This document shows, piece by piece, positions 3,273 through 30,606 of a stretch of DNA of 37,376 nt. The stretch's first letter is position 1. Every line of letters starts with the position of its first letter. Origin of the DNA: a virus; the IMG/VR virus record IMGVR_UViG_3300050175_000080, positions 1 to 37,376 of that record. One strand, given 5' to 3'. The translations under genes and the position numbers were made by a program. Under the pieces are notes generated by a model. It was not told the origin of the DNA. It saw nothing but the letters and a program-made list of their open reading frames with translations, and ran no database searches.

Positions 3273-3305
3273 CATACTTTACATTTAATTAACAAGGAGA
3301 CGATT

Positions 3306-3569
3306 ATGAAAAGAATAGAATATAATAAAGTTCACGACGCATTGTGGGGAAATCTGAAAACCTATGGATGCGGTTTATTGATTGCTGTAGCAGGATTGTT
3401 GTATTTTTATTATATATTTGGGCAACCCAGTTTCCCCGGATGGGCCATTCTTGGATTATTAGGAACCGGCTGGTTTGGAGGGGCAATTGATGCCACAAGG
3501 CGCAGTTTGATTAATTTTAATCGCGCTGTCCGAATTGATGAAGTAGAGAACTCGCTAAGGCGCCGCTAA
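3306..3569 (+). CDS. Small two-span membrane protein, SieA-position candidate
   Basis: The 87-aa protein has two hydrophobic segments, at about residues 19-38 and 44-60, separated by a short turn with Pro and Gly. A polar, Arg-rich C-terminal tail ends NSLRRR. AAGGAGACG precedes the ATG at good spacing, and a promoter lies upstream. It is transcribed against the flanking operons and its 3' end overlaps the end of the gp16-like gene by 53 bases. In P22 the membrane superinfection-exclusion gene sieA follows gene 16. The shared position and membrane nature suggest a similar role, but there is no sequence match I can claim. Confidence 0.7.
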   Translation: MKRIEYNKVHDALWGNLKTYGCGLLIAVAGLLYFYYIFGQPSFPGWAILGLLGTGWFGGAIDATRRSLINFNRAVRIDEVENSLRRR

Positions 3570-18958: not shown

Positions 18959-18966
18959 GAAAAACC

Positions 18967-18995
18967 TTGACGTTTTGACGCTTACCATCTATACT
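18967..18995 (+). promoter_or_regulatory. Early promoter P1
   Basis: TTGACG (18967-18972), a 17-base spacer and TATACT (18990-18995) start the plus-strand operon, 48 bases before the first ATG. The spacer is nearly identical to that of the internal promoter at 20419-20447 (TGACGCTTACCATC in both), so a common regulator probably binds over it. Confidence 0.75.
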
Positions 18996-19003
18996 ATCTT
19001 TAA

Positions 19004-19043: not shown

Positions 19044-19319
19044 ATGATACATAACACAAAAAATTGTTTTTTGATAGCGGTAAAAGATGGGGATTGGTAT
19101 TGCGCAAGAATCCATGAAGAGTTATATCACGAAGCAAGAAACCCGTATCTAACTAGAATGAAAGTATTAGCACAACACTATGGGGATTATGAAAAAGCGA
19201 AGGCTGCGACTGTATGCGGCGTAACAGCGCGTTATAGCTACGTGGCTGACCTTGCAAAAGAACACAACTTAACAAAAATCTATATTTTTGATAAAGACTG
19301 GAAAATAACTCAAATTTGA
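19044..19319 (+). CDS. Hypothetical early protein, 91 aa (related to the 22204 gene)
   Basis: First gene of the plus-strand early operon. The ATG follows AGGAGACGA at good spacing. The frame is open for a further 600 bases upstream, but that part overlaps terS and the basic genes and has no start signal. The C-terminal 40 residues (VADLAKEHNLTKIYIFDKDW) align with LASLAEEVKTKSIYIFDVKW of the product of 22204-22500, so the two are paralogues at opposite ends of the gene array. Function unknown; early expression before an array of paralogues suggests a host- or defence-directed protein. Confidence 0.72.
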   Translation: MIHNTKNCFLIAVKDGDWYCARIHEELYHEARNPYLTRMKVLAQHYGDYEKAKAATVCGVTARYSYVADLAKEHNLTKIYIFDKDWKITQI

Positions 19320-19346: not shown

Positions 19347-19366
19347 AAAACAATGGAGATAACATT

Positions 19367-19666
19367 ATGGCTTACATACAGGTAAAAATACTAGGGGAAA
19401 AAATCCCTTTTGAATTGACCGAAAGCCCATCTTACGACTGGAATGGTGAGCATTGGAGGTGGGGGGGTGAGTATTCCCCTTTTACGCGGGAAGACATTAA
19501 GCATTTTATTAAAAAACGCCGTGATGACTGGGAAAGTGGAAAAATACAACCACTCGCTAAAAAGTATCGCCCTTGGAATGAATATACCGCCCAAGAAAAA
19601 AGGGACTTTATAGTGCGAGATATACAGATTAATACCTGCTATAACTTCCGTCCTTTTATTTATTAA
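19367..19666 (+). CDS. Hypothetical early protein, 99 aa
   Basis: Soluble, aromatic-rich protein with WNGEHWRWGGEYSPF in the first third and a basic IKKRRDDW helix in the middle; no Cys-based metal site. An ATGGAGA leader precedes it, but here the upstream ATG is out of frame with the gene. That argues that the GGAGA, not the upstream ATG, is functional in this whole family of leaders. I recognise no family. Confidence 0.65.
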   Translation: MAYIQVKILGEKIPFELTESPSYDWNGEHWRWGGEYSPFTREDIKHFIKKRRDDWESGKIQPLAKKYRPWNEYTAQEKRDFIVRDIQINTCYNFRPFIY

Positions 19667-19704
19667 ATTTTAGGACGGCATTATTAACCAAAGGAAACTA
19701 CATC

Positions 19705-19953
19705 ATGAAACAACCATCCCATTACTACGAAAAGCTAACCGAAATTATGACAGGCTCCCGCGATAAGAGTGAACGCGAAGAATTAGAGGTACTTTTTGAA
19801 AAAGCCCTAAAAAAGAAGAAAGCGGACTACATAAAAAGCTTATCACCAGCTGAATTAGAACAGCGATTAAGAGATGAGTGGGGGCTATCAGGGCGACAAG
19901 CATCTTGTATCGCCGACAAACAGAGATTTCTATGTAGCGCGATAGAAGGCTAA
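19705..19953 (+). CDS. Hypothetical early protein, 82 aa
   Basis: Small helical protein, highly charged (SEREELEVLFEKALKKKK at about residues 22-39), with an LSPAELEQRLRDEWGLS segment resembling a helix-hairpin DNA- or protein-contact motif, and two Cys near the C-terminus. It follows leader-element copy 1, in which AAGGAAAC replaces GGAGA, so the ribosome site differs from the other copies. No family recognised. Confidence 0.65.
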   Translation: MKQPSHYYEKLTEIMTGSRDKSEREELEVLFEKALKKKKADYIKSLSPAELEQRLRDEWGLSGRQASCIADKQRFLCSAIEG

Positions 19954-19993
19954 ATTTTAAAGACGGCATTATTAACCAATGGAGAATACGACT

Positions 19994-20422
19994 ATGAAAA
20001 TGATTATCCCACTTACACAGATAAAAGCCCTCGCGGAGCTAAACGCCTTTGATATATGGGTAGCCACACAAATTGATGAAAATGATATTGTTAGAACTTA
20101 TGGTGATCTATCCCTTAATATGCCCAATGATATATTTAACAATCGCATATACAACGAAGACATGATCTACGCGGATTACAAACATACGATATGGGACAGT
20201 TTCTTAGCTTACCAAGAAAAGTATAACAAAAAATATCTTACAGACTTAGCGCACCATCATGATTTTATATACATGCTTTTATCGATAGCTACGCGACATG
20301 CTTTAGAAAAGATGAGCGATAAATTACACACGCACAATCCTAAAGCCTATGCAAAAGTTATGCCCCTTGAATTAATACAAGAAGAATGCAAAAAACGATA
20401 CAAAGAAAAAATTAACCCTTGA
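19994..20422 (+). CDS. Early array paralogue 1 (142 aa), divergent member
   Basis: Most divergent of five tandem paralogues. It keeps the family layout: an N-terminal helix, a central (D)YKHTIWD motif at about 67-73 and a C-terminal helix YMLLSIATRHALEKM at about 100-114. I chose the second ATG of the leader, eight bases after GGAGA; the in-frame ATG upstream is part of the ribosome site. The stop coincides with the -35 of the next promoter. Family similarity is to phage proteins of the DUF7222 type, as I remember them; function unknown. Confidence 0.65.
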   Translation: MKMIIPLTQIKALAELNAFDIWVATQIDENDIVRTYGDLSLNMPNDIFNNRIYNEDMIYADYKHTIWDSFLAYQEKYNKKYLTDLAHHHDFIYMLLSIATRHALEKMSDKLHTHNPKAYAKVMPLELIQEECKKRYKEKINP

Positions 20423-20447
20423 CTTTCTGACGCTTACCATCTATAAT
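20419..20447 (+). promoter_or_regulatory. Internal early promoter P2
   Basis: TTGACT (20419-20424), a 17-base spacer and TATAAT (20442-20447), a better -10 than P1. The spacer repeats the TGACGCTTACCATC of P1. An AT-rich leader of about 90 bases follows, ending in leader-element copy 3. It would boost the last nine genes of the operon. Confidence 0.75.
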
Positions 20448-20542
20448 AGAATTATAAAATAAAAACACCAAACTAAAATAACACAACACAATATAAAATA
20501 AAGGACGGCTTAAATTTTAACTAAACAATGGAGATTACGATT

Positions 20543-20872
20543 ATGACTATGTACGATTATTTAGACAACTTAGAAGGCTATAGCTGGTACACAAACAATA
20601 CTAGTAGGCTAGAAAGTGAACTATTACACACATACGACCTAGAAGATTTTGAAACTATGAAAGAAAACGTGGCAGAAGCAGTTATAGGGTGGGATGACGC
20701 GTTAGGGCTTTACGAGGAACACAAAAATGAAATATGGCAAAAATGTAGCCCATCAATTCAGCTAGAGAACTGCGACTTTCCCGAGTTATTCGAGGTCCGC
20801 ATGACTTATGAAGCCATCGAAAATATTGCTTACAAAGTGATGGAAGAATTAAAAATAGCACAAGCAGCCTAA
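20543..20872 (+). CDS. Early array paralogue 2 (109 aa)
   Basis: Begins MTMYDYLDNLEG. Family motifs: a leading (K/Y)DYL helix; LYEEHKNEIW at about residues 54-63; and a C-terminal helix TYEAIENIAYKVMEEL at about 87-102. It is the shortest of the five because it lacks most of the loop between the LY and C-terminal motifs. The product is acidic, typical of small inhibitors or anti-defence proteins, but this is only a general trend. First gene after promoter P2. Confidence 0.68.
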   Translation: MTMYDYLDNLEGYSWYTNNTSRLESELLHTYDLEDFETMKENVAEAVIGWDDALGLYEEHKNEIWQKCSPSIQLENCDFPELFEVRMTYEAIENIAYKVMEELKIAQAA

Positions 20873-20913
20873 GAACCAAAAGACGGCATTTTTAACCAAT
20901 GGAGAATATGACT

Positions 20914-21309
20914 ATGAATATGAAAGACTACATCATGACCTTAAAAGCGGAATGTCCTGCCTGCTGCAAGTATCAAAAAAACGAGCTAGCAAAATGGCTA
21001 TGCGAAAATTTAGGTTACAAACAATTTGAAGAGATTGCTACGTATGGAGTACGACATGATACGAGCTTAGGAATGCAAGGAGTTAGCGTAGAAAAAGGAC
21101 TTGAGAAATTTTATCATCATTTTAGCAAAGCCATCGCGGAGATATGCGCAATGTATGAGGATGAAACAGGCCGTAAAATTATTGAGAGCACACAGCCACT
21201 AGAGACCGTGAAAAATTACATAGATTTGATGACGTGCGCTGCCATCAGAGAGATTGCCTGCCACTTAATACATCAAATAGACGAAACAAAGAAAAAAATG
21301 ACGGCTTAA
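20914..21309 (+). CDS. Early array paralogue 3 (131 aa)
   Basis: Begins MNMKDYIMTLKAECPACCKY. It is closest to paralogue 4: both have Y-KNELAKW near residue 25, (H/Y)G at about 45, AI-EI--MYED--G in the middle and TCAA(I/M)-EIA--I at the C-terminus. Three Cys in the first 20 residues (CPACC) are not conserved in paralogue 4. Its stop lies within leader-element copy 5, so that leader overlaps coding sequence. Function unknown. Confidence 0.68.
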   Translation: MNMKDYIMTLKAECPACCKYQKNELAKWLCENLGYKQFEEIATYGVRHDTSLGMQGVSVEKGLEKFYHHFSKAIAEICAMYEDETGRKIIESTQPLETVKNYIDLMTCAAIREIACHLIHQIDETKKKMTA

Positions 21310-21338
21310 ATTTTTATTAACCAATGGAGAATACGATT

Positions 21339-21737
21339 ATGACTATTAACATAAACATGACCGACTACTTAAACACCTTAGGCGACAAATGCCCCAAAAG
21401 CTTTCGATACGAAAAAAACGAGCTGGCGAAATGGATGGTTAAAAATCTAACTTATAAACACATAGATGATATAGCCCATCATGGCGCGGAGCGAATGACG
21501 AATGACGCTTGTGAAATAGAGGCAGCAATACTAAACCTTTATTATGACAACAAGGAAGCAATAACAGAAATATCATCTATGTACGAAGACTCACAAGGTC
21601 ATCCAATTATCTGCACGCTAGACGGGATAGACTCTTGGGAAGATTACATCTACTGCTTAACCTGTGCTGCAATGGAAGAAATAGCACAAGACACAATTTA
21701 CAGAATAAACGAAATAAAACAAAAAGAAGGTGCTTAA
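21339..21737 (+). CDS. Early array paralogue 4 (132 aa)
   Basis: Same fold outline as paralogue 3 and the closest pair in the array, so probably the most recent duplication. Conserved blocks are YEKNELAKWM, HHGAE, LYYDNKEAITEISSMYED and LTCAAMEEIA. The HGA followed by an LY-D-(K/E)--I block is what reminds me of DUF7222-type phage proteins. The start follows leader-element copy 5. Confidence 0.68.
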   Translation: MTININMTDYLNTLGDKCPKSFRYEKNELAKWMVKNLTYKHIDDIAHHGAERMTNDACEIEAAILNLYYDNKEAITEISSMYEDSQGHPIICTLDGIDSWEDYIYCLTCAAMEEIAQDTIYRINEIKQKEGA

Positions 21738-21784
21738 CCCAAAAAGACGGCTTAACTTTTAACTAACCAATGGAGACTACGACT

Positions 21785-22162
21785 ATGACTATGAAAATGA
21801 TTGATGCGTTACGAGACATCGACAAAAAATACGGAGAAAAAAACAAATGGAATGAGTTTGAATGGTGGGCATTAAACCACTATAGCTATGACGACTTTAA
21901 AGCTGCTTTTCGGAGTGGGTACGGGGCGATCGCGGTATATTTAACACACGAACATATGGACAAGCTCTACAATTATCATCGAGAAAATATTTGGAAAATT
22001 ATTGAAGATTACGATATGGCAAGACAAAAATCCACGCTAGAAGAATTAGGGAAAATGGACATCACCCACCCGCTTGATTTCAGTTATTGTTTTATGGGTA
22101 CAGCCATAGAGGGACTAGCATATAAAATATTGCCACTTATGGGAAAGCATAGAAAGGGCTAA
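21785..22162 (+). CDS. Early array paralogue 5 (125 aa)
   Basis: Begins MTMKMIDALRDIDKKYG. Family motifs: NEFEWWALNHYSYDDFKAA near residues 23-41, LYNYHRENIWKIIEDY near 61-76 and FMGTAIEGLAYKI near 104-116. The central motif is closest to paralogue 2 (LYEEHKNEIW). It is preceded by leader-element copy 6. Function unknown. Confidence 0.68.
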   Translation: MTMKMIDALRDIDKKYGEKNKWNEFEWWALNHYSYDDFKAAFRSGYGAIAVYLTHEHMDKLYNYHRENIWKIIEDYDMARQKSTLEELGKMDITHPLDFSYCFMGTAIEGLAYKILPLMGKHRKG

Positions 22163-22203
22163 AAATCAAAGACGGCAATTACCAACCAATGGAAAATACA
22201 AAC

Positions 22204-22500
22204 ATGACTAAATTAAATTACACCCCCATCATCTTAGCGGTAAAAAAGCGTACAGGTTATAAGGCGATAGGTTCCCTTTTTGAACAGGACTCACATTGGC
22301 GAACTATCCTTGAGTCGCTGCAAAATAGAGTAACCACGCGCTATCAGGCACTTAAATTAGTGAAGAATGGCTCTATATTCTCGGACTATGGGCTGGCAAG
22401 CTTAGCCGAAGAGGTGAAAACAAAAAGCATTTATATTTTTGACGTGAAATGGGAGCTAAACCCTTTTCCATTCAACCAACTAAATGGGAAACAAGCATGA
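22204..22500 (+). CDS. Hypothetical early protein, 98 aa (related to the 19044 gene)
   Basis: Ends the leader-element array; its leader copy is degenerate (GGAAAA instead of GGAGAA). The C-terminal half shares LA-E-----IYIFD-KW with the first gene of the operon. The N-terminal half is basic. Its TGA overlaps the next start as ATGA. Unknown function. Paralogues at both ends suggest the array grew between two copies. Confidence 0.65.
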   Translation: MTKLNYTPIILAVKKRTGYKAIGSLFEQDSHWRTILESLQNRVTTRYQALKLVKNGSIFSDYGLASLAEEVKTKSIYIFDVKWELNPFPFNQLNGKQA

Positions 22501-22799
22501 CACAAATAGCATCAACCAAACTGGGACAAGTGCGTGATTTACTGGGGACGCCCTGGCGTTTAAAGCAAATCGATTTTGCCCACAAGATAAACGTCGTTTG
22601 CGTAAAGGAATTCGGCTATCTATACAAAGGCGTGCCGGTGATGATCAAGTATTTAAGTTCAATTCACATTTTCTCGCGTGCATCGATCGAAGAGGGGCTA
22701 TATAAGCACTGGCAAGCTTACCTAAAAATTGATGACAGGCGATGCGTTGAATTGGGCATATCACGGCGAGAAGCAGAAATCAGCACACAACTTAACTAA
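22497..22799 (+). CDS. Hypothetical early protein, 100 aa
   Basis: The product is basic and soluble, with a strand-rich centre (NVVCVKEFGYLYKGVPVMIK at about residues 29-48) and a C-terminal GISRREAE helix. The ATG overlaps the previous stop as ATGA, with GGGAAAC as a weak ribosome site. No family recognised. A small DNA- or RNA-contact domain is possible but not shown. Confidence 0.62.
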   Translation: MTQIASTKLGQVRDLLGTPWRLKQIDFAHKINVVCVKEFGYLYKGVPVMIKYLSSIHIFSRASIEEGLYKHWQAYLKIDDRRCVELGISRREAEISTQLN

Positions 22800-22808
22800 G
22801 GAAACAAC

Positions 22809-23150
22809 ATGACTAAAAAAGGGGGCAACCCAACAAAAATTAATTTTAAAGAGTATCAATTATGCTACACATACGAAGGCACAAAATTTAAGCATACGTA
22901 TGATCACGTATTGGCAATGCTTGATGCAACGATGGACGACAACACATACGGGGGTCATGCTTTAATCCGCATGATAACAAAGCACTGGTCGGATCTAAAA
23001 GAACAGAATTTAAAGCCATGCGAAATATTTGCTCAGTGGGGTTCTTTTTTTGAGGAAACGCTTAACAGCCCCGAAGATATTGATGTATATTTTAAACATT
23101 TATTCAAAACGCTTGCTTTTGAGCTTAGACGATTTAAGGAAACAACATGA
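22809..23150 (+). CDS. Hypothetical early protein, 113 aa
   Basis: Soluble, with a basic N-terminus and a helical C-terminal half containing FFEETLNSPEDIDVYFKHLF. AAGGAAAC precedes the ATG. The last four bases overlap the start of the downstream Xre-like gene. No family recognised; coupling to a regulator gene suggests joint expression. Confidence 0.62.
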   Translation: MTKKGGNPTKINFKEYQLCYTYEGTKFKHTYDHVLAMLDATMDDNTYGGHALIRMITKHWSDLKEQNLKPCEIFAQWGSFFEETLNSPEDIDVYFKHLFKTLAFELRRFKETT

Positions 23151-23356
23151 CTAAACTAGAAAAAATATTGTACGAAAAACACATCTACCATGCTCGATCA
23201 GTTCAGCGCATCGGGCTAGATGGTTTTTCGAGGCAATGCGGGATTTCTCGCACCACGCTCGCTGATCACATCAAAGGTCGGCGAAGGATGGGCGATAAAT
23301 CCCTTAAAAAGATAGCCGCCTATTTTGGTGTGCCTGTGACTAACTTAATTGATTAA
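23147..23356 (+). CDS. Small Xre-family helix-turn-helix protein, 69 aa
   Basis: A complete lambda-repressor-type HTH: FSRQCGISRTTLADHIKGRR (about residues 27-46) gives helices 2 and 3, followed by a conserved SLKKIAAYFGVPVTNLI helix and turn. There is no dimerisation or cleavage domain, so it resembles Cro-sized regulators. The start overlaps the previous gene as ATGA. A possible target is the repeated promoter spacer at P1 and P2 of its own operon, which is an inference. Confidence 0.82.
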   Translation: MTKLEKILYEKHIYHARSVQRIGLDGFSRQCGISRTTLADHIKGRRRMGDKSLKKIAAYFGVPVTNLID

Positions 23357-23377
23357 CTAACCAACGGAGAAAATCCA

Positions 23378-23638
23378 ATGACTAAAAACATAGAAAATTT
23401 AAAGTTTAAAGAAGAATGCAAAGATATAATCGCGCATAATATCTTAAAATTGCTGGAGCCACAGGAGAATAATAATAAAATTATATCTCTTTTCAGCCTA
23501 AACATGAAACTTGGCTTAAGTGACGCGACAATGCAAAAATATGTAAGCCGTGTTCAGCTTCCACAGGTACATATTCTCATCAAAATTGCGGATTATTTTG
23601 GCATAACACTCGATGAGCTAGTAAGAAAGAAATTATAA
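23378..23638 (+). CDS. Second small Xre-family helix-turn-helix protein, 86 aa
   Basis: Last gene of the early operon. An N-terminal helix of about 25 residues precedes an HTH with FSLNMKLGLSDATMQKYVSR and the family ending ILIKIADYFGITLDELV. The upstream gene encodes a sister HTH, 21 bases away. Its leader has CCAACGGAGA, a variant of the operon's CCAATGGAGA. The two may be antagonistic (repressor and Cro-like), but neither looks like a full-length prophage repressor. Confidence 0.78.
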   Translation: MTKNIENLKFKEECKDIIAHNILKLLEPQENNNKIISLFSLNMKLGLSDATMQKYVSRVQLPQVHILIKIADYFGITLDELVRKKL

Positions 23639-24554: not shown

Positions 24555-24759
24555 CGGCTTCCCCTTTTTCATTTTCATATCCTAATAAGAAGTCAAAATG
24601 AAAATAATTATTTACATGCTTTATAATTTTTTCATTTTCCTCCAGCATGGGTTGGCATGCCAGCGCAACGCCAATATAAATAGTTTGAGCCTCTTTATCG
24701 CTAATTATCAAATTTGGCTGGTCTGATTCATATCCCTCAATAATCTTAATCTCTCTCAT
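24538..24759 (-). CDS. Hypothetical protein, 73 aa
   Basis: Small protein beginning MREIKIIEGYESDQPNL, with a helix containing AQTIYIGVALACQPML and an acidic C-terminus. GAAGGGGAAAG precedes the ATG, which overlaps the previous stop as ATGA. Its start (MREIKIIEGYE) resembles that of the last gene in the block (MRKFEIINEFD), so the two may be distant paralogues. Confidence 0.62.
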   Translation of the reverse strand: MREIKIIEGYESDQPNLIISDKEAQTIYIGVALACQPMLEENEKIIKHVNNYFHFDFLLGYENEKGEADEQTK

Positions 24760-25040
24760 TTTCTTTCCCCTTCATTAACCACATCCACCCATCGTGTATT
24801 CAAAATATTAAGATGCGCCTGCCGCTTATGCACATCGTCTTGTATGTCCGTAATCAAACCAACCACCACAGGCGGTATACTGCGCGGATACTCTATTCTT
24901 AGCTGATGAAATTCTTGGCTTAACACCCGCATAGCAATTTCAATTAATTTATCCACTTTCCCCGCAATTTCTACTTTGATTTTTGTTGACTCGACCAAGT
25001 CTTTTTTAGCCGTGTCGAGCGTTTTCTGTTTGTCAGTCAT
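24756..25040 (-). CDS. Hypothetical protein, 94 aa, first gene of the minus block
   Basis: Helical protein with an N-terminal coiled-coil-like stretch (TLDTAKKDLVESTKIKVEIA) and a second helix pair. No Cys, no membrane segment. AGAGGAAAC precedes the ATG. About 95 bases separate it from a divergent gene; the gap holds the third copy of the shared TCTTACAAA site, read on this strand, which may serve as or overlap the -35. Confidence 0.63.
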   Translation of the reverse strand: MTDKQKTLDTAKKDLVESTKIKVEIAGKVDKLIEIAMRVLSQEFHQLRIEYPRSIPPVVVGLITDIQDDVHKRQAHLNILNTRWVDVVNEGERK

Positions 25041-25135
25041 TTTGTTTCCTCTTGTTAAATAAAAACAACTATAGCCTCTCCCTCAAAAACATGCTATAAG
25101 TAATCCCCACCACGTTTTGTAAGAGATGTCTTAAA

Positions 25136-25378
25136 ATGAAGTATTATTTTATCATTGACAAAGAGGGCGACGTGCTTGGCCCGTGCAAAGACTTGCTCAA
25201 TAAAGCAAAAGATAGAGCAGTTATTATCACAACGCCGAGGCCCATCAAAGAAGAGCATGAAAAAAGAAGGCTGGGCATGACGCTTGCGGGTAGGCTAGAG
25301 ATTGAGCGTTACCCGTCCTTTTTGCAAGTATATATTGACGGGCGATTAGAGCAAGTGGACTTAGAGCATGTTAAATAA
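25136..25378 (+). CDS. Hypothetical protein, 80 aa
   Basis: Divergent from the minus block. It starts MKYYFIIDKEGDVLG and has a strand-rich outline ending FLQVYIDGRLEQVDLEHVK. The ribosome site is weak (GAGATG, ten bases before). A TAAGA-GATG-TCTTA inverted repeat lies immediately upstream, so it may be repressed. No family recognised. Confidence 0.6.
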   Translation: MKYYFIIDKEGDVLGPCKDLLNKAKDRAVIITTPRPIKEEHEKRRLGMTLAGRLEIERYPSFLQVYIDGRLEQVDLEHVK

Positions 25379-25439
25379 CTACCAAGGCAATCACCATAAT
25401 AATTACTAACCACATAAAAATTTCATTTTGTAGCTTCAT
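25371..25439 (-). CDS. Possible 22-aa membrane peptide
   Basis: A 22-codon frame overlaps the end of the 57-aa gene and is nearly all hydrophobic after MKLQNEIFMW. The ribosome site is poor (AGAAAG), so translation would depend on coupling. Low confidence. It is noted because a 21-aa peptide of similar nature lies at 23659-23724. Confidence 0.28.
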   Translation of the reverse strand: MKLQNEIFMWLVIIMVIALVVI

Positions 25440-25596
25440 GTTTAGCACATCTTTCTGCGTGAATGGGTGGATGCTGATCCTTATGAATATATTTTTGCAC
25501 TAAAATTGTAAACCCTAACATTATTCCCCCTATTAAAAAAAGACATACTATCATTTGCAGAATAAAAACAAACCACTCATTAAAAAAATCTTTCAC
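25423..25596 (-). CDS. Small single-span membrane protein, 57 aa (GTG start)
   Basis: GAGG lies eight bases before a GTG. The product has one membrane segment at about residues 9-33 (VFILQMIVCLFLIGGIMLGF) and a short His-rich polar tail (HKDQHPPIHAERCAKHE). It lies 30 bases downstream of the tRNA-like RNA on the same strand, so both may come from the promoter at 25877-25904. No family recognised. Confidence 0.58.
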   Translation of the reverse strand: MKDFFNEWFVFILQMIVCLFLIGGIMLGFTILVQKYIHKDQHPPIHAERCAKHEATK

Positions 25597-25626
25597 TTTA
25601 TTATCCTCTATGTTTTATAAAGCGGA

Positions 25627-25736
25627 GACGCGAAGCGGGACTCGAACCCGCATTTGCCTTCCTGACGACAACACTCCGCGAAGTGTCACAGGCATTCTAC
25701 CGATGCTCAGTCGTTTGAGCTTGAATTATTCGCGTC
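25627..25736 (-). ncRNA. 110-nt tRNA-like structured RNA
   Basis: On the minus strand an 8-bp end helix (GACGCGAA with TTCGCGTC) closes directly on a canonical T arm (GCGGG-TTCGAGT-CCCGC, 25635-25651), as in tRNA. A D-arm-like hairpin GCAT-CGGTAGA-ATGC (25692-25706) has the conserved GG in its loop. The anticodon position holds a longer arm, CCTG...CAGG with an inner ACACT/AGTGT stem and a 6-base loop (25661-25692). About 20 extra bases, able to form GCTCA/TGAGC, lie between the 5' end helix and the D arm. It is too long and irregular for a normal tRNA. A Y-RNA-like or degenerate tRNA is possible. Confidence 0.55.
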
Positions 25737-25742
25737 ATAAGC

Positions 25743-25819
25743 GAGAAAGAAAAGGCGCTGAGCGGTACACAACCTCCTCAGGTCAACTAGCACCAGCGCT
25801 CCTGCACCCTCTCTTTCTC
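25743..25819 (-). ncRNA. Long purine/pyrimidine hairpin preceding the tRNA-like RNA
   Basis: GAGAAAGAGAGGG pairs with CCTTTTCTTTCTC through 13 continuous pairs (two G-U). A bulge follows, then CGCTG/CAGCG, GTGC/GTAC and a terminal GACCT-GAGG-AGGTT hairpin. It ends six bases before the tRNA-like end helix, so both are probably domains of one transcript from the promoter at 25877-25904. Confidence 0.45.
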
Positions 25820-25876
25820 TTGATAACGACCTTGCAGCTTCATGTACATGGCAAAAAATTTAACGCTATCGAAGTG

Positions 25877-25904
25877 AGTATAACACCCCCAACAAATCTG
25901 TAAA
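25877..25904 (-). promoter_or_regulatory. Promoter for the tRNA-like RNA transcript
   Basis: Minus strand: TTTACA (25899-25904), a 16-base spacer and TATACT (25877-25882). Transcription would start near 25870 and run through the hairpin, the tRNA-like RNA and the 57-aa gene. The surrounding 25840-26044 has no convincing gene. Confidence 0.65.
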
Positions 25905-26045
25905 TAAGACATTCCTGTAACTTCATGTAAGCCATTTCGCACAAACTATTTCAAACTTTTCAATTGATGCAGCCCTTAAATTCTGCGATTATTATCCTAC
26001 ACCTCAAAGATGTATTGCAACAGTCATTGCTATTCTTTAGGTTGT

Positions 26046-26066
26046 GGCCCCTTGATTGGGGCCTTT
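26046..26066 (+). promoter_or_regulatory. GC-rich leader hairpin before the 131-aa gene
   Basis: GGCCCC, loop TTGATT, GGGGCC, then TTT. The hairpin is followed nine bases later by AGGAGA and the ATG at 26085. The T run is short for a terminator, so attenuation or RNA stability is as likely as termination. Confidence 0.45.
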
Positions 26067-26084
26067 AAATATAGGAGAACTGTT

Positions 26085-26480
26085 ATGCTTGATTATTTGT
26101 TTGGTTTATGCCCTCCTCATCCTTATCATGTTACTACCTCTGAAGAGATTCGGCGTGCTTTCTGTCCCACCCCAGAAGAAAGAGCAAAAGACAGTGAAGC
26201 ATTAGCAAAAGCCATGCGACCGATGACACAAGAGGAAATCGATAAGATTAATGATCCAAAACTATTAATTGACATAAGTGCGCCAATGGGCTACTACACG
26301 CACGGCCCTGACCGCATAATCCATTGTCCTAAGACTGGTTATTACGAACGAAAAAACAACAAGATTAAACCTATCAGTGAAGAAGAAGCTGAAAATCGAA
26401 AAGATGAAGTGATTAAAATTTCGCGGTGGAAGCGGTTGGTGAAGAAAATGATGAGGGGTTGGAGAGTAAAAAATGACTGA
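26085..26480 (+). CDS. Hypothetical protein, 131 aa
   Basis: Starts MLDYLFGLCPPHPYHVTTSE. The N-terminal third has Cys/Pro/His residues, the middle is acidic and helical, and the last 40 residues are very basic (RWKRLVKKMMRGWRVK), suggesting nucleic-acid or membrane contact. I chose the ATG at 26085 because AGGAGAAC precedes it; a longer frame begins before the hairpin. Its stop overlaps the next gene by eight bases. No family recognised. Confidence 0.65.
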   Translation: MLDYLFGLCPPHPYHVTTSEEIRRAFCPTPEERAKDSEALAKAMRPMTQEEIDKINDPKLLIDISAPMGYYTHGPDRIIHCPKTGYYERKNNKIKPISEEEAENRKDEVIKISRWKRLVKKMMRGWRVKND

Positions 26481-26862
26481 CAAACAAAATTTAATTAACT
26501 TGTGGGAAATGTTCTTAATGAATAAACCATTAGGCTTAACAGAACATGGGAACACAGTCTGGAAGCATATCGACTTTGCTAAAATCGAAGAAAAAGTTAA
26601 ACGAATGGCTTCATCGGAAATTGAAGCCGAAAGAGGCTTATCTTTTATCGCATGGGTAATTCCACTCTTAGCCGATGAAGGAGACGCAACGCGCCCACGC
26701 AAGCTTGTTTTTGCATGCTCACGACGTCAGCTCGAAGCCTTTTTAGAAACGCTTGCTTTTGAAAGTGGGGCGACTGCGAAAGGCTTCACGCCAAAATACG
26801 AGCGTGGCAGTGAAGAATATGCGAGGATGGCAGAGATGAAGCGCGTCTCGCGGTTAGTATAG
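26473..26862 (+). CDS. Hypothetical protein, 129 aa
   Basis: Soluble, mixed-charge protein beginning MTDKQNLINLWEMFL, with a helix LSFIAWVIPLLADEGD in the middle and a basic end. No metal-binding or catalytic motif seen. The ribosome site GGAGAG precedes the ATG, inside the 131-aa gene. The two genes form a small plus-strand operon between RNA genes on the other strand; together they resemble an accessory pair. Confidence 0.63.
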   Translation: MTDKQNLINLWEMFLMNKPLGLTEHGNTVWKHIDFAKIEEKVKRMASSEIEAERGLSFIAWVIPLLADEGDATRPRKLVFACSRRQLEAFLETLAFESGATAKGFTPKYERGSEEYARMAEMKRVSRLV

Positions 26863-26894
26863 GAAAGGGTTACAAAATGAAACCAGTTGAAAAA

Positions 26895-26971
26895 TGGTAG
26901 CGGGGGCAGGATTTGAACCTACGACGTCAAGGTTATGAGCCTTGTGAACTGCCAGACTGTTCTACCCCGCG
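26895..26971 (-). tRNA. Initiator-type tRNA-Met (CAU)
   Basis: A 77-nt cloverleaf with encoded CCA. Acceptor CGCGGGG with CCCCGCT leaves positions 1 and 72 as an unpaired C and U; bacterial initiator tRNAs are defined by a 1:72 mismatch (C:A in E. coli). The D stem GAAC/GTTC has the A11:U24 pair typical of initiators. Anticodon loop is CTCATAA. The anticodon stem is CAAGG/CCTTG, so only two of the three consecutive G-C pairs of initiators are present. T arm is GTAGG-TTCAAAT-CCTGC. It would charge Met and may act in initiation, favouring phage mRNAs. Confidence 0.9.
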
Positions 26972-27000
26972 AAAAAAAGGGCGAAACGGAGGCAACGCCC
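26972..27000 (-). terminator. Intrinsic terminator with CCTCC loop (unit 1)
   Basis: Minus strand: GGGCG, loop TTGCCTCCGTTT, CGCCC, then seven T. The T run touches the 5' end of the tRNA gene. It would end the short RNA from the promoter at 27048-27075. Confidence 0.8.
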
Positions 27001-27041
27001 TATTATTAATTTTAATCAAATTCGAGGAGACGAAAGTTGAT
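26972..27041 (-). ncRNA. Candidate small RNA 1, anti-ribosome-site
   Basis: A promoter and a terminator define an RNA of about 70 nt with no open frame of note. Its 5' part holds UCGUCUCCU, complementary over nine bases to AGGAGACGA in the ribosome sites of the genes at 19044 (19031-19039) and 3306 (3295-3303). The terminator loop holds CUCCGUU, complementary to AACGGAG before the gene at 23378. Expression and pairing are inferred. Confidence 0.45.
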
Positions 27042-27047
27042 GAGAGC

Positions 27048-27075
27048 AGTATAGCATGTTCGGGGGCATAGTCAA
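27048..27075 (-). promoter_or_regulatory. Promoter of candidate small RNA 1
   Basis: Minus strand: TTGACT (27070-27075), a 16-base spacer and TATACT (27048-27053), close to consensus. It could also supply the tRNA by read-through of the terminator. Confidence 0.7.
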
Positions 27076-27084
27076 ATTACTGGC

Positions 27085-27115
27085 AAAAAAAGGCCGACAA
27101 TGGAGGGGATCGGCC
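27085..27115 (-). terminator. Intrinsic terminator with CCTCC loop (unit 2)
   Basis: Minus strand: GGCCGA, loop TCCCCTCCATTG, TCGGCC, then seven T. It ends both the 140-aa gene transcript and the short RNA from the promoter at 27152-27180. Confidence 0.9.
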
Positions 27116-27145
27116 AAGGATTTGTTTTCTCACCTAATAATAAGG
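27085..27145 (-). ncRNA. Candidate small RNA 2, anti-leader
   Basis: A near-consensus promoter directly after the 140-aa gene and the shared terminator would give an RNA of about 60 nt. The terminator loop contains CUCCAUUG, the exact complement of CAATGGAG. That 8-mer is the ribosome site and flank of six early-operon leaders (genes starting 19367, 19994, 20543, 20914, 21339 and 21785). Regulation by loop-to-leader pairing is an inference. Confidence 0.45.
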
Positions 27146-27151
27146 AATTAG

Positions 27152-27180
27152 AGTATAGCGCACCATTTTGGGGGCGTCAA
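27152..27180 (-). promoter_or_regulatory. Promoter of candidate small RNA 2
   Basis: Minus strand: TTGACG (27175-27180), a 17-base spacer and TATACT (27152-27157). The -10 lies in a 12-base sequence, TAGAGTATAGCG on the plus strand (27149-27160), repeated exactly at the promoter of the 140-aa gene (27639-27650). Confidence 0.7.
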
Positions 27181-27189
27181 CAAAAAGGA

Positions 27190-27612
27190 TTAATCTTTTG
27201 CGGCCCCTCTCAACCGATTCTGATAATGCCCATCTTGCTTCAAGCAGTCTTCCATGCCGCAAATACAGGTGTCGTTTTTCAGCTCAACCAAATAATCGAG
27301 CGACTGTTCAAACTGCTTTTGATGCTCAGATCCAAATCTCAAATAGCGCATGTCGATAGGCGGATTGGGGTGTTTTTTTAGAAAATCGATGTATTCATCC
27401 CATTTCGTAAAATTCGGCTTATCTTGCTTCCATCGTGCAATGAACTTCTTCAGCATCGACAAGGACAAACACACAAACACGGGTCTAGGCAGTGGAGCTT
27501 TTGAGAAATGCGCCGCTTCTGGCTCCGTGAAATGATTGTACAAGATGACAGGCTCTAGGAAATAGCCCTTCGATTGAGCTTTCTTAAATTCTTTTTTCTC
27601 AGCATCGTTCAT
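27190..27612 (-). CDS. Moron-like protein with Cys/His cluster, 140 aa
   Basis: Stand-alone gene with its own promoter and terminator. The product is basic in the first 20 residues, has a hydrophobic PVFVCLSLSMLKKF segment, and ends with CICGMEDCLKQDGH, a Cys/His arrangement that may bind zinc. A related CYCGHEQCARHK occurs in the protein of 34237-34572. AAGGA lies eight bases before the ATG; a TTG two codons earlier is an alternative. Morons often protect or alter the host cell, but this one matches no family I know. Confidence 0.68.
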   Translation of the reverse strand: MNDAEKKEFKKAQSKGYFLEPVILYNHFTEPEAAHFSKAPLPRPVFVCLSLSMLKKFIARWKQDKPNFTKWDEYIDFLKKHPNPPIDMRYLRFGSEHQKQFEQSLDYLVELKNDTCICGMEDCLKQDGHYQNRLRGAAKD

Positions 27613-27641
27613 GTGCAAGTTCCTTAATAGAGGTTAAATAG

Positions 27642-27670
27642 AGTATAGCGTTTATACATGGTCTTATCAA
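27642..27670 (-). promoter_or_regulatory. Promoter of the moron-like gene
   Basis: Minus strand: TTGATA (27665-27670), a 17-base spacer and TATACT (27642-27647). The -10 region GCTATACTCT is identical to that of the promoter at the other end of the gene. Confidence 0.72.
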
Positions 27671-27730
27671 ATATTCTTATTATCCAAATTTCTTTTTTAT
27701 ATATAGATATTCTTAGAGACTAGATTATAC

Positions 27731-27817
27731 AGGACACTTAATAGCCTAGTCCCAGGACACTTAATTTTTTGGAGGGTAGTTTATGCACAAGTTATTCACA
27801 TGGCGAGGACACTTAAT
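27731..27817. repeat. Three AGGACACTTAAT direct repeats (iteron-like)
   Basis: Exact 12-base copies at 27731-27742, 27754-27765 and 27806-27817, all in the same direction. The first two starts are 23 bases apart (about two helical turns); the third lies beyond the DnaA boxes. A partial match, GTGTACTTAAAT, is at 27931-27942. Candidate initiator binding sites. Confidence 0.75.
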
Positions 27818-27849
27818 TTCTTTCCTTTGGTCGGTGCTTGATTTTGGGA

Positions 27850-27900
27850 GGGGTATAAGGGGTACAACCAGAGGGGTATAAGAGGTATAAGGGGTAAAAT
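27850..27900. repeat. Tandem GGGGTATAAG-type repeats
   Basis: GGGGTATAAG (27850-27859 and 27873-27882), GGGGTACAAC (27859-27868), AGGTATAAG (27883-27891) and GGGGTAAAAT (from 27891) make five related units of 9-10 bases between the DnaA boxes and the initiator gene. Confidence 0.7.
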
Positions 27901-27973
27901 GTAAAGAATACGGACAAAAAGCGTGTTGAAGTGTACTTAAATAATGCGTGGGGAAAATTGGAGCCGAATTTAA

Positions 27974-28831
27974 CTATGTGAGGATTGGGTATTTCTCGTC
28001 AGTTTTGGCTTTGACTGTCTCGAACGGTAAGCCATGATCCATCAAGTGCTTGGAGTAGGCTATGCGCTCTTCGCTGCGCTTCACCCGTTGATCGTGGGTT
28101 GTCTTGGCAGCGACACGCTTATAAAGCGGTCGAGGGGGTGGCGCAGCAGCCTTAGGTGTTGGTGCGACTACGGCAGCTGGTGCAGGCTCGTTTTTGCATA
28201 GAGCGCTTTTTATCATTGAGGCGAGTCTTCCCTGATTTCGCTTGCAAGTTTCTTTTTCAGCTTGTGACTCATAGAGCGGGGCTGATTGAGCCTTCTTCTG
28301 CTTGGCTAAGCTTTTGCGTTTGTAATGCTGGGCGGTTTCAAGAGAGGCATTTGATATGCGAAGGTCGTAGAAGAAGGTTCGGGCAATCCGAATCAATCGC
28401 TGACTAACCCACTTACCACCCACCTTAGCCCGTCTGTAGTGGACATAGAGATAACCTGCTTTGATCATGTCTTTGATCGCGCGATAAGCTCTTTTGCCTC
28501 TAACACCAGCCTTCTGACAGATGTAGGTTGCTTGAGCAGGGAGCGTCTCTCCATTGTCCATTGGTGTGCCAACCTGCAAATCCTCTAAGTTGAGGTGAGA
28601 AACCAGCACTTGCCCCACCAGACTGATGCTTTCACGGCGCTCCGAGCGCTGGGCGTGCGCTTCAGAATTGATATGACGCAAAACAGGGAGATACTTATCA
28701 GGAGTATAATAAAAGGATTCAAGCGCCTTATGACAGCGCTTGATAAAATGAGGCAAGCTGCCTTTGGATTTCAAGAACCTTGGGTTGAGCGGGTCATGCC
28801 CACAAAGATTTCCAGCAGTTGTGCTCGTCAT
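27974..28831 (-). CDS. Plasmid-type replication initiator (RepA, IncFII-like)
   Basis: The 285-aa protein would bind the adjacent origin and start theta replication. The N-terminal DPLNPRFLKSKGSLPHFIKR echoes the NPNPVF...GTLKFCEKL opening of IncFII RepA. A winged-helix part follows (QATYICQKAGVRGKRAYRAI, then KDMIKAGYLYVHYRR), like the RATRAL...LGLITYQ region of that family. The C-terminal third is basic and Ala/Pro-rich, a probable DNA-binding tail. The ribosome site is weak and the leader is about 215 bases, as in plasmids with antisense copy control. Family call from memory; initiator function is more certain than subgroup. Confidence 0.68.
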   Translation of the reverse strand: MTSTTAGNLCGHDPLNPRFLKSKGSLPHFIKRCHKALESFYYTPDKYLPVLRHINSEAHAQRSERRESISLVGQVLVSHLNLEDLQVGTPMDNGETLPAQATYICQKAGVRGKRAYRAIKDMIKAGYLYVHYRRAKVGGKWVSQRLIRIARTFFYDLRISNASLETAQHYKRKSLAKQKKAQSAPLYESQAEKETCKRNQGRLASMIKSALCKNEPAPAAVVAPTPKAAAPPPRPLYKRVAAKTTHDQRVKRSEERIAYSKHLMDHGLPFETVKAKTDEKYPILT

Positions 28832-29052
28832 AATTTTTAATTATACCTTGAACCTTGCAGAAAAACACCCCCTTTAACACCTAATTCCTAAAGCTCGTAC
28901 CCACCAGATGGAAGGAAGCACTAAAGGCATGAGAAAGGCCTTATGTATTCTTCTGTTCCCGAATATGCGTCCTTGTACCCTAGACTGGAGAACACCAGCC
29001 ACGCACACCATACGGAGACAGTTCGGGCACAATCGACGACTTCGGTAATAAT
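28832..29052 (-). promoter_or_regulatory. Long leader of the replication initiator, with possible leader peptide
   Basis: Between the promoter and the initiator ATG lie about 215 transcribed bases. One 45-codon frame (28874-29011, ATG start, poor ribosome site) ends about 43 bases before the initiator, and an AGGC/GCCT inverted repeat is present near 28927-28943. IncFII replicons use such leaders (leader peptide plus antisense RNA) to set copy number. I found no antisense promoter by eye. Confidence 0.4.
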
Positions 29053-30363: not shown

Positions 30364-30606
30364 ATGAAAGAAACTGAATTTTATTTAGCTGAATTACATT
30401 CACTGCTTAAAGGCTTAGAGGCCAGGACAAAGGCGATAAGCGAGTTCTGGTTTGAGAATCGAATAAAAATTGCATCGGAGGGTTGTCTAAATGCCGTTGA
30501 GTTAATGACCGATGAGCTAGATATACAAGTAACGCTACTTGCATCAGCATCTGCTAAGATCGAAAGGTTTCGTAACGAAATGAGGGAGGGGAAAGATGAA
30601 GAATGA
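30364..30606 (+). CDS. Hypothetical helical protein, 80 aa
   Basis: Almost entirely helical, with heptad-like hydrophobics (YLAELHSLLKGLEARTKAIS) and an acidic C-terminus. GGGGATAG precedes the ATG three bases after the previous stop. It overlaps the next gene by eleven bases. No family recognised; a coiled-coil adaptor is possible. Confidence 0.62.
   Translation: MKETEFYLAELHSLLKGLEARTKAISEFWFENRIKIASEGCLNAVELMTDELDIQVTLLASASAKIERFRNEMREGKDEE

Follow-up and report, generated by a model that had tools for sequence, protein, structure and literature searches.

What do two short transcription units, set in a row with a small gene on one side and a tRNA-Met gene of the initiator type on the other, do for the phage that carries them? 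The locus lies on the minus strand of a 37,376-base virus record (G+C 41.4%), which was analysed as a whole and is referred to here as the window. The first-pass annotation had proposed a self-targeting riboregulator pair that silences a whole family of the phage's own gene leaders. In our analysis, the tandem units with predicted anti-Shine-Dalgarno (anti-SD) loops were borne out, whereas the aim at the whole leader family met with statistics that were marginal or at chance level. The most likely reading, held at somewhat better than even confidence from the sequence, is that the pair would be anti-SD small RNAs blocking translation initiation.

The genes of the window include those for terminase, a P22-like portal, a RecE-like exonuclease, RecT, a D12-type adenine methylase and two small Cro/CI-type helix-turn-helix proteins, and no integrase was recognised in the subset of ORFs whose proteins were scanned. 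Protein queries (the genes at 27190 and 27974, terminase, portal, coat and an early gene) detected no close relatives among viral and genome contigs, phage records and plasmids, the only matches being distant ones (portal, ~22%; terminase, ~25%). DNA queries of the same collections with the leader pattern, the unit 2 loop 18-mer and the 209-base region returned only single leader matches in two unrelated contigs, L004 and L005. These leaders are near-identical to those of the phage; L004 has the leader in common by DNA, yet its proteins have no match to the window.

Two promoter-to-terminator units in front of a tRNA gene

On the minus strand, the order of features is a gene at 27612-27190 (140 aa, assigned to no family and served by a TATACT promoter of its own, 27670-27642), a promoter, a hairpin followed by U7, a second promoter, a second hairpin followed by U7, and the tRNA-Met gene at 26971-26895. 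Unit 2 (27180-27085) consists of a promoter-like site, TTGACG-17-TATACT (27152-27180, 10 of 12 consensus matches), and a terminator hairpin at 27085-27115 (z -3.3) with the stem GGCCGA/UCGGCC, the loop UCCCCUCCAUUG and U7, and the small RNA predicted between promoter and U7 (RNA 2, 27085-27145) would be ~61 nt long, its start being approximate (fold z -2.0). Unit 1 (27075-26972) has the promoter-like site TTGACT-16-TATACT (27048-27075, again 10 of 12) and a terminator hairpin at 26972-27001 (z -3.0) with the stem AGGGCG/CGCCCU, the loop UUGCCUCCGUUU and a U-run (U7); its predicted RNA (RNA 1, 26972-27041) would be ~70 nt long and folds with a z of -3.8, no shuffle being equally good. Thus both promoter-like sites and both U7-tailed hairpins of the tandem minus-strand units claimed earlier are present.

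Promoter-like sites by themselves are not above chance in the window (50 vs 50.2 expected). When a cassette is defined as a promoter site that agrees with the consensus at 10 of 12 bases and has a strong terminator within 100 nt downstream, the whole window holds only two, both at 26972-27180, compared to a mean of 0.000 in 200 windows randomised with a first-order Markov model; in addition, only three strong terminators occur in the window, two of which belong to units 1 and 2. Since such cassettes are found only here and in none of the randomised windows, and since these units account for two of the three strong terminators, units 1 and 2 are very probably real transcription units, as far as promoters, terminators, predicted folds and loop content, all read from the sequence, can tell. 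A coding role of RNA 2 was considered and rejected: its sole frame starts with GUG, has 18 codons, lacks a Shine-Dalgarno (SD) sequence and extends beyond the terminator.

Several other features were observed in the surroundings of the locus. At 25620-25904 (minus strand), a promoter-like TTTACA-16-TATACT precedes a strongly folded RNA that ends in a tRNA-like 3′ half, with a T-arm GCGGGTTCGAGTCCCGC (weak tmRNA match, 14.5 bits), an acceptor-like ACGCGAA/TTCGCGT and an extra hairpin at the position of the anticodon arm; ARAGORN calls it only if introns are allowed, as tRNA-Val at 25624-25794 with a 76-nt insert. A DUF3800-IX RNA motif (RF02968) scores 47.7 bits vs a gathering score of 36.8 at 28965-29037 (minus strand), and on the plus strand GGACACTTAAT occurs three times in ~90 bases (27727-27817), with repeats of the GAGGGGTATAAG type further on, at 27848-27899.

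Hairpin loops and the junction with tRNA-Met

RNA 1 is predicted to consist of two hairpins joined by an AU-rich linker, and RNA 2 of the terminator preceded by a weak 5′ hairpin. The 5′ hairpin of RNA 1 (27015-27041, z -2.6), AUCAA-CU-UUCG[UCUCCU]CGAA-U-UUGAU, was absent from the first-pass annotation; its first base is A27041, seven bases past the -10 box of unit 1, so that the hairpin begins at the predicted +1 and displays the hexaloop UCUCCU. Both terminator loops, 10-12 nt in length, carry CCUCC as had been stated, and they align as UUGCCUCCGUUU (unit 1) and UCCCCUCCAUUG (unit 2) with CCUCC at the same position. The two RNAs are otherwise different in their 5′ parts, being alike by eye only in the loop pattern U..CCUCC.UU. 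Hence, the anti-SD motif CUCC is displayed in three hairpin loops, two in RNA 1 and one in RNA 2, although the inner part of the unit 1 terminator loop may gain two extra pairs in the predicted fold, leaving only a CUCC tetraloop. Among the 64 GC-rich hairpins of the window (5-bp stem with at least four G-C pairs, loop of 6-12 nt), the terminator loops of the two units are the only ones with CTCC (none of the other 62). Furthermore, the loop region of unit 2, GAUC-C-CCUCC, resembles the 3′ end of 16S rRNA, GAUC-A-CCUCC, a likeness that suits a general anti-SD reading. It is probable that RNAs 1 and 2 would act by anti-SD pairing.

The same hairpins could be read on the plus strand, where their loops show GGA (AGGAGA, ACGGAGG and AUGGAGG) and might titrate a protein of the CsrA/RsmA type. 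CsrA/RsmA sites have the loop motif ANGGA, with which ACGGA and ATGGA agree; as promoter-like sites and strong terminators are present on the minus strand, while the plus strand has no strong terminator and, in 24627-28011, no promoter-like site, this reading is highly improbable.

The tRNA-Met (CAU) gene (ARAGORN; Rfam tRNA, 56.4 bits) has a 5′ end that is the base immediately after the U7 of unit 1, a junction missing from the first-pass annotation. It bears initiator-type marks, namely a 1-72 mismatch (position 1 unpaired) and A11-U24, and its CCA is encoded. Because RNA 1 stops exactly where the tRNA starts, read-through followed by RNase P cleavage would yield the same 3′ end of RNA 1 as termination. 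The arrangement also raises an explanation by transcription only, in which the hairpins insulate or attenuate transcription and have no role in trans: the second of the two promoters, P2, would be that of tRNA-Met, with a leader terminator that limits its output, and unit 2 a similar short transcript of no function. The start of the tRNA directly after U7 agrees with this, as does the lack of any further minus-strand promoter of at least 10 of 12 between P2 and the tRNA; yet attenuation leaves unexplained why CUCC occupies three of three hairpin loops and why a separate, complete unit 2 lies upstream, and we regard this explanation as unlikely.

Matches between the loops and the leaders of the phage

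If the loops do pair with SD sequences, it may be asked whether the leaders of this phage are their particular targets. The early genes at 19351-23378 (plus strand) share the leader GACGGC...TTAACCAATGGAGANTACGAYTATGAC. Two near-identical early promoters were also noticed in this region, at 18962-18996 and 20414-20448 (plus strand, 35 bases, 89% alike), in both of which two TTGAC/TGACG-like -35 boxes overlap.

The matches reported earlier were recovered. The complement of the unit 2 loop, CAATGGAG, is found in six early-gene leaders (19351, 19977, 20526, 20897, 21322 and 21768) and in no seventh; elsewhere it recurs at three positions within coding sequence and in unit 2 itself, read on the plus strand. 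For unit 1, the match to the leaders of the genes at 19044 and 3306 holds as well, AGGAGACGA occurring only at 3295, 19031 and 27025; the corresponding 9-nt stretch of the RNA, UCGUCUCCU, comprises the 5′ hexaloop and three stem bases, and pairing through it requires partial opening of the stem. As to CUCCGUU, which had been set against an AACGGAG before the gene at 23378, AACGGAG is indeed present at 23363 (also at 26985 and 10600), but the unit 1 terminator loop gave no significant result. One could thus suppose that the RNAs evolved against the repeated early leaders (CAATGGAG, AGGAGACGA and AACGGAG) and switch off the family of genes behind them, a supposition favoured by the 8-nt match of unit 2 to six leaders, by the 9-nt match of unit 1 to two, and by leaders that remain alike while the encoded proteins are only 13-41% identical. 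However, the conserved stretch of the leaders reaches well past the eight paired bases, which implies that it is not maintained by the small RNA.

Random loops in which the CUCC core was fixed and the flanks were shuffled or random provide a further argument against such a self-targeting pair (values from the own-leader tests are nominal, uncorrected for the number of comparisons). The 8-nt match of unit 2 had P values of 0.021 and 0.061 for the six-copy family, and of 0.23 and 0.25 for any of 55 leaders. In unit 1, P was 0.91 and 0.60 for the terminator loop, and 0.06 and 0.15 for the 5′ loop. When duplex energy was averaged over all leaders, no loop stood clearly apart from CUCC-keeping shuffles, and other CTCC-containing 65-nt stretches of this genome matched its own leaders equally well in 10-17% of cases. 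When accessibility was taken into account, RNA 2 paired at <= -5 kcal/mol with 11 of 55 start regions vs 6.4 +/- 3.1 for CUCC-keeping shuffled loops (P 0.08), and RNA 1 with nine of 55 vs 12.6 for shuffles (P 1.0). The best predicted partners of RNA 2 are the genes at 30596 (-11.5), 26473 and 24759, after which the CAATGGAG leaders rank (-6.5 to -7.5). Overall, the fit to own leaders compared with random or shuffled loops is at best marginal for unit 2 (P 0.02-0.25), and the unit 1 terminator loop does no better than random (P 0.6-1.0).

The preference for own leaders may also be judged against three other phages. RNA 2 pairs with 11 of 55 own leaders vs seven of 137 of theirs (P 0.004), which speaks for self-targeting, but this excess has P 0.11 with the six copied leaders counted once; since the six are copies of one leader, they were not taken as independent evidence. 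The value for RNA 1 was P 0.34. Tuning of the RNAs to the phage's own leader family, as estimated from these sequence comparisons, is therefore doubtful, and a pair evolved to silence that family is equally unlikely.

The first-pass annotation had offered as its own alternative that the plus strand here is a decayed copy of early-gene leaders, the match reflecting ancestry and not pairing. The plus strand does carry AGGAGACGA and, after it, an ATG at 27040; yet by eye the likeness to real leaders ends at the 8-9-mers, the ORF has only four codons, and no plus-strand promoter-like site is present in 24627-28011. Moreover, the bases flanking the 9-mer are palindromic and form part of the minus-strand hairpin, whose base gives rise to the ATG. 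This alternative has accordingly become very improbable.

Known anti-SD small RNAs and a proposed mechanism

Rfam matched neither RNA, at the gathering level or at a loose threshold (E up to 1). By anatomy, the phage pair works like several known systems, and by sequence it is a member of none. In Listeria monocytogenes, LhrC1-5 are multicopy RNAs that bind their target at the SD region through UCCC motifs, located both in a hairpin loop and in the loop of the terminator (PMC4132741); the redundant C-rich motifs are paralleled here by CUCC in three hairpin loops, terminators included, whereas LhrC is host-encoded, present in five copies and induced by LisRK, and has no sequence match at this locus (Rfam). 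The tandem NmsRA/NmsRB of Neisseria meningitidis repress through anti-SD stretches rich in U and C, found in a loop as well as in a region that is single-stranded (PMC5362039). As in the phage, two adjacent units share one intergenic region, but the NmsR siblings are host-encoded, have three stem-loops and are 70% identical, while the phage pair shares little besides the loop motif. In the rhizobial alpha-r14 or 'cuckoo' RNAs (NfeR1), a single anti-SD motif recurs on hairpins whose stems are dissimilar (PMC10746234), and the phage hairpins likewise differ in their stems and expose a common anti-SD motif; in contrast, one rhizobial RNA carries CCUCCUCCC in three hairpins, and the phage RNAs have CUCC/CCUCC in one or two hairpins each, CCUCCUCCC being absent from all three phage loops (UCUCCU, UUGCCUCCGUUU and UCCCCUCCAUUG). 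Small RNAs encoded by phages, with targets among phage or host RNAs, include lambda OOP, 24B_1, VpdS, AgvB and AsxR, the last of which pairs with the FnrS terminator loop (PMC12197685, PMC4104026); in the parts of these two sources that deal with them, none is described as two RNAs in tandem whose terminator loops are anti-SD.

For the preferred reading, in which small RNAs with anti-SD loops block the initiation of translation, we infer the following course of events. The main RNA polymerase of the host would transcribe both small RNAs from the predicted start sites, and each terminator loop would serve also as the target-recognition loop. An Hfq-type chaperone may assist, as the U7 tails and the AU-rich linker suggest. 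Pairing of loops with SD sequences would then cover the latter and lower translation initiation of several mRNAs, the best predicted targets in the phage being the gene at 30596, the CAATGGAG early genes and the genes at 3306 and 19044, possibly together with host mRNAs.

A more far-reaching proposal, which we consider speculative and rather improbable, is that the tandem small RNAs before the initiator tRNA form a translation-initiation control cassette, in which terminator loops that mimic the anti-SD sequence of the ribosome turn down the multi-copy early leaders, and perhaps host mRNAs, and thereby time the early-to-late switch or hold early genes off. RNAs with anti-SD loops are known from bacterial chromosomes. 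If true, the present locus would add a compact phage pair in which terminators are themselves the targeting loops and which is joined to an initiator tRNA gene, a means of acting on translation initiation by RNA only.
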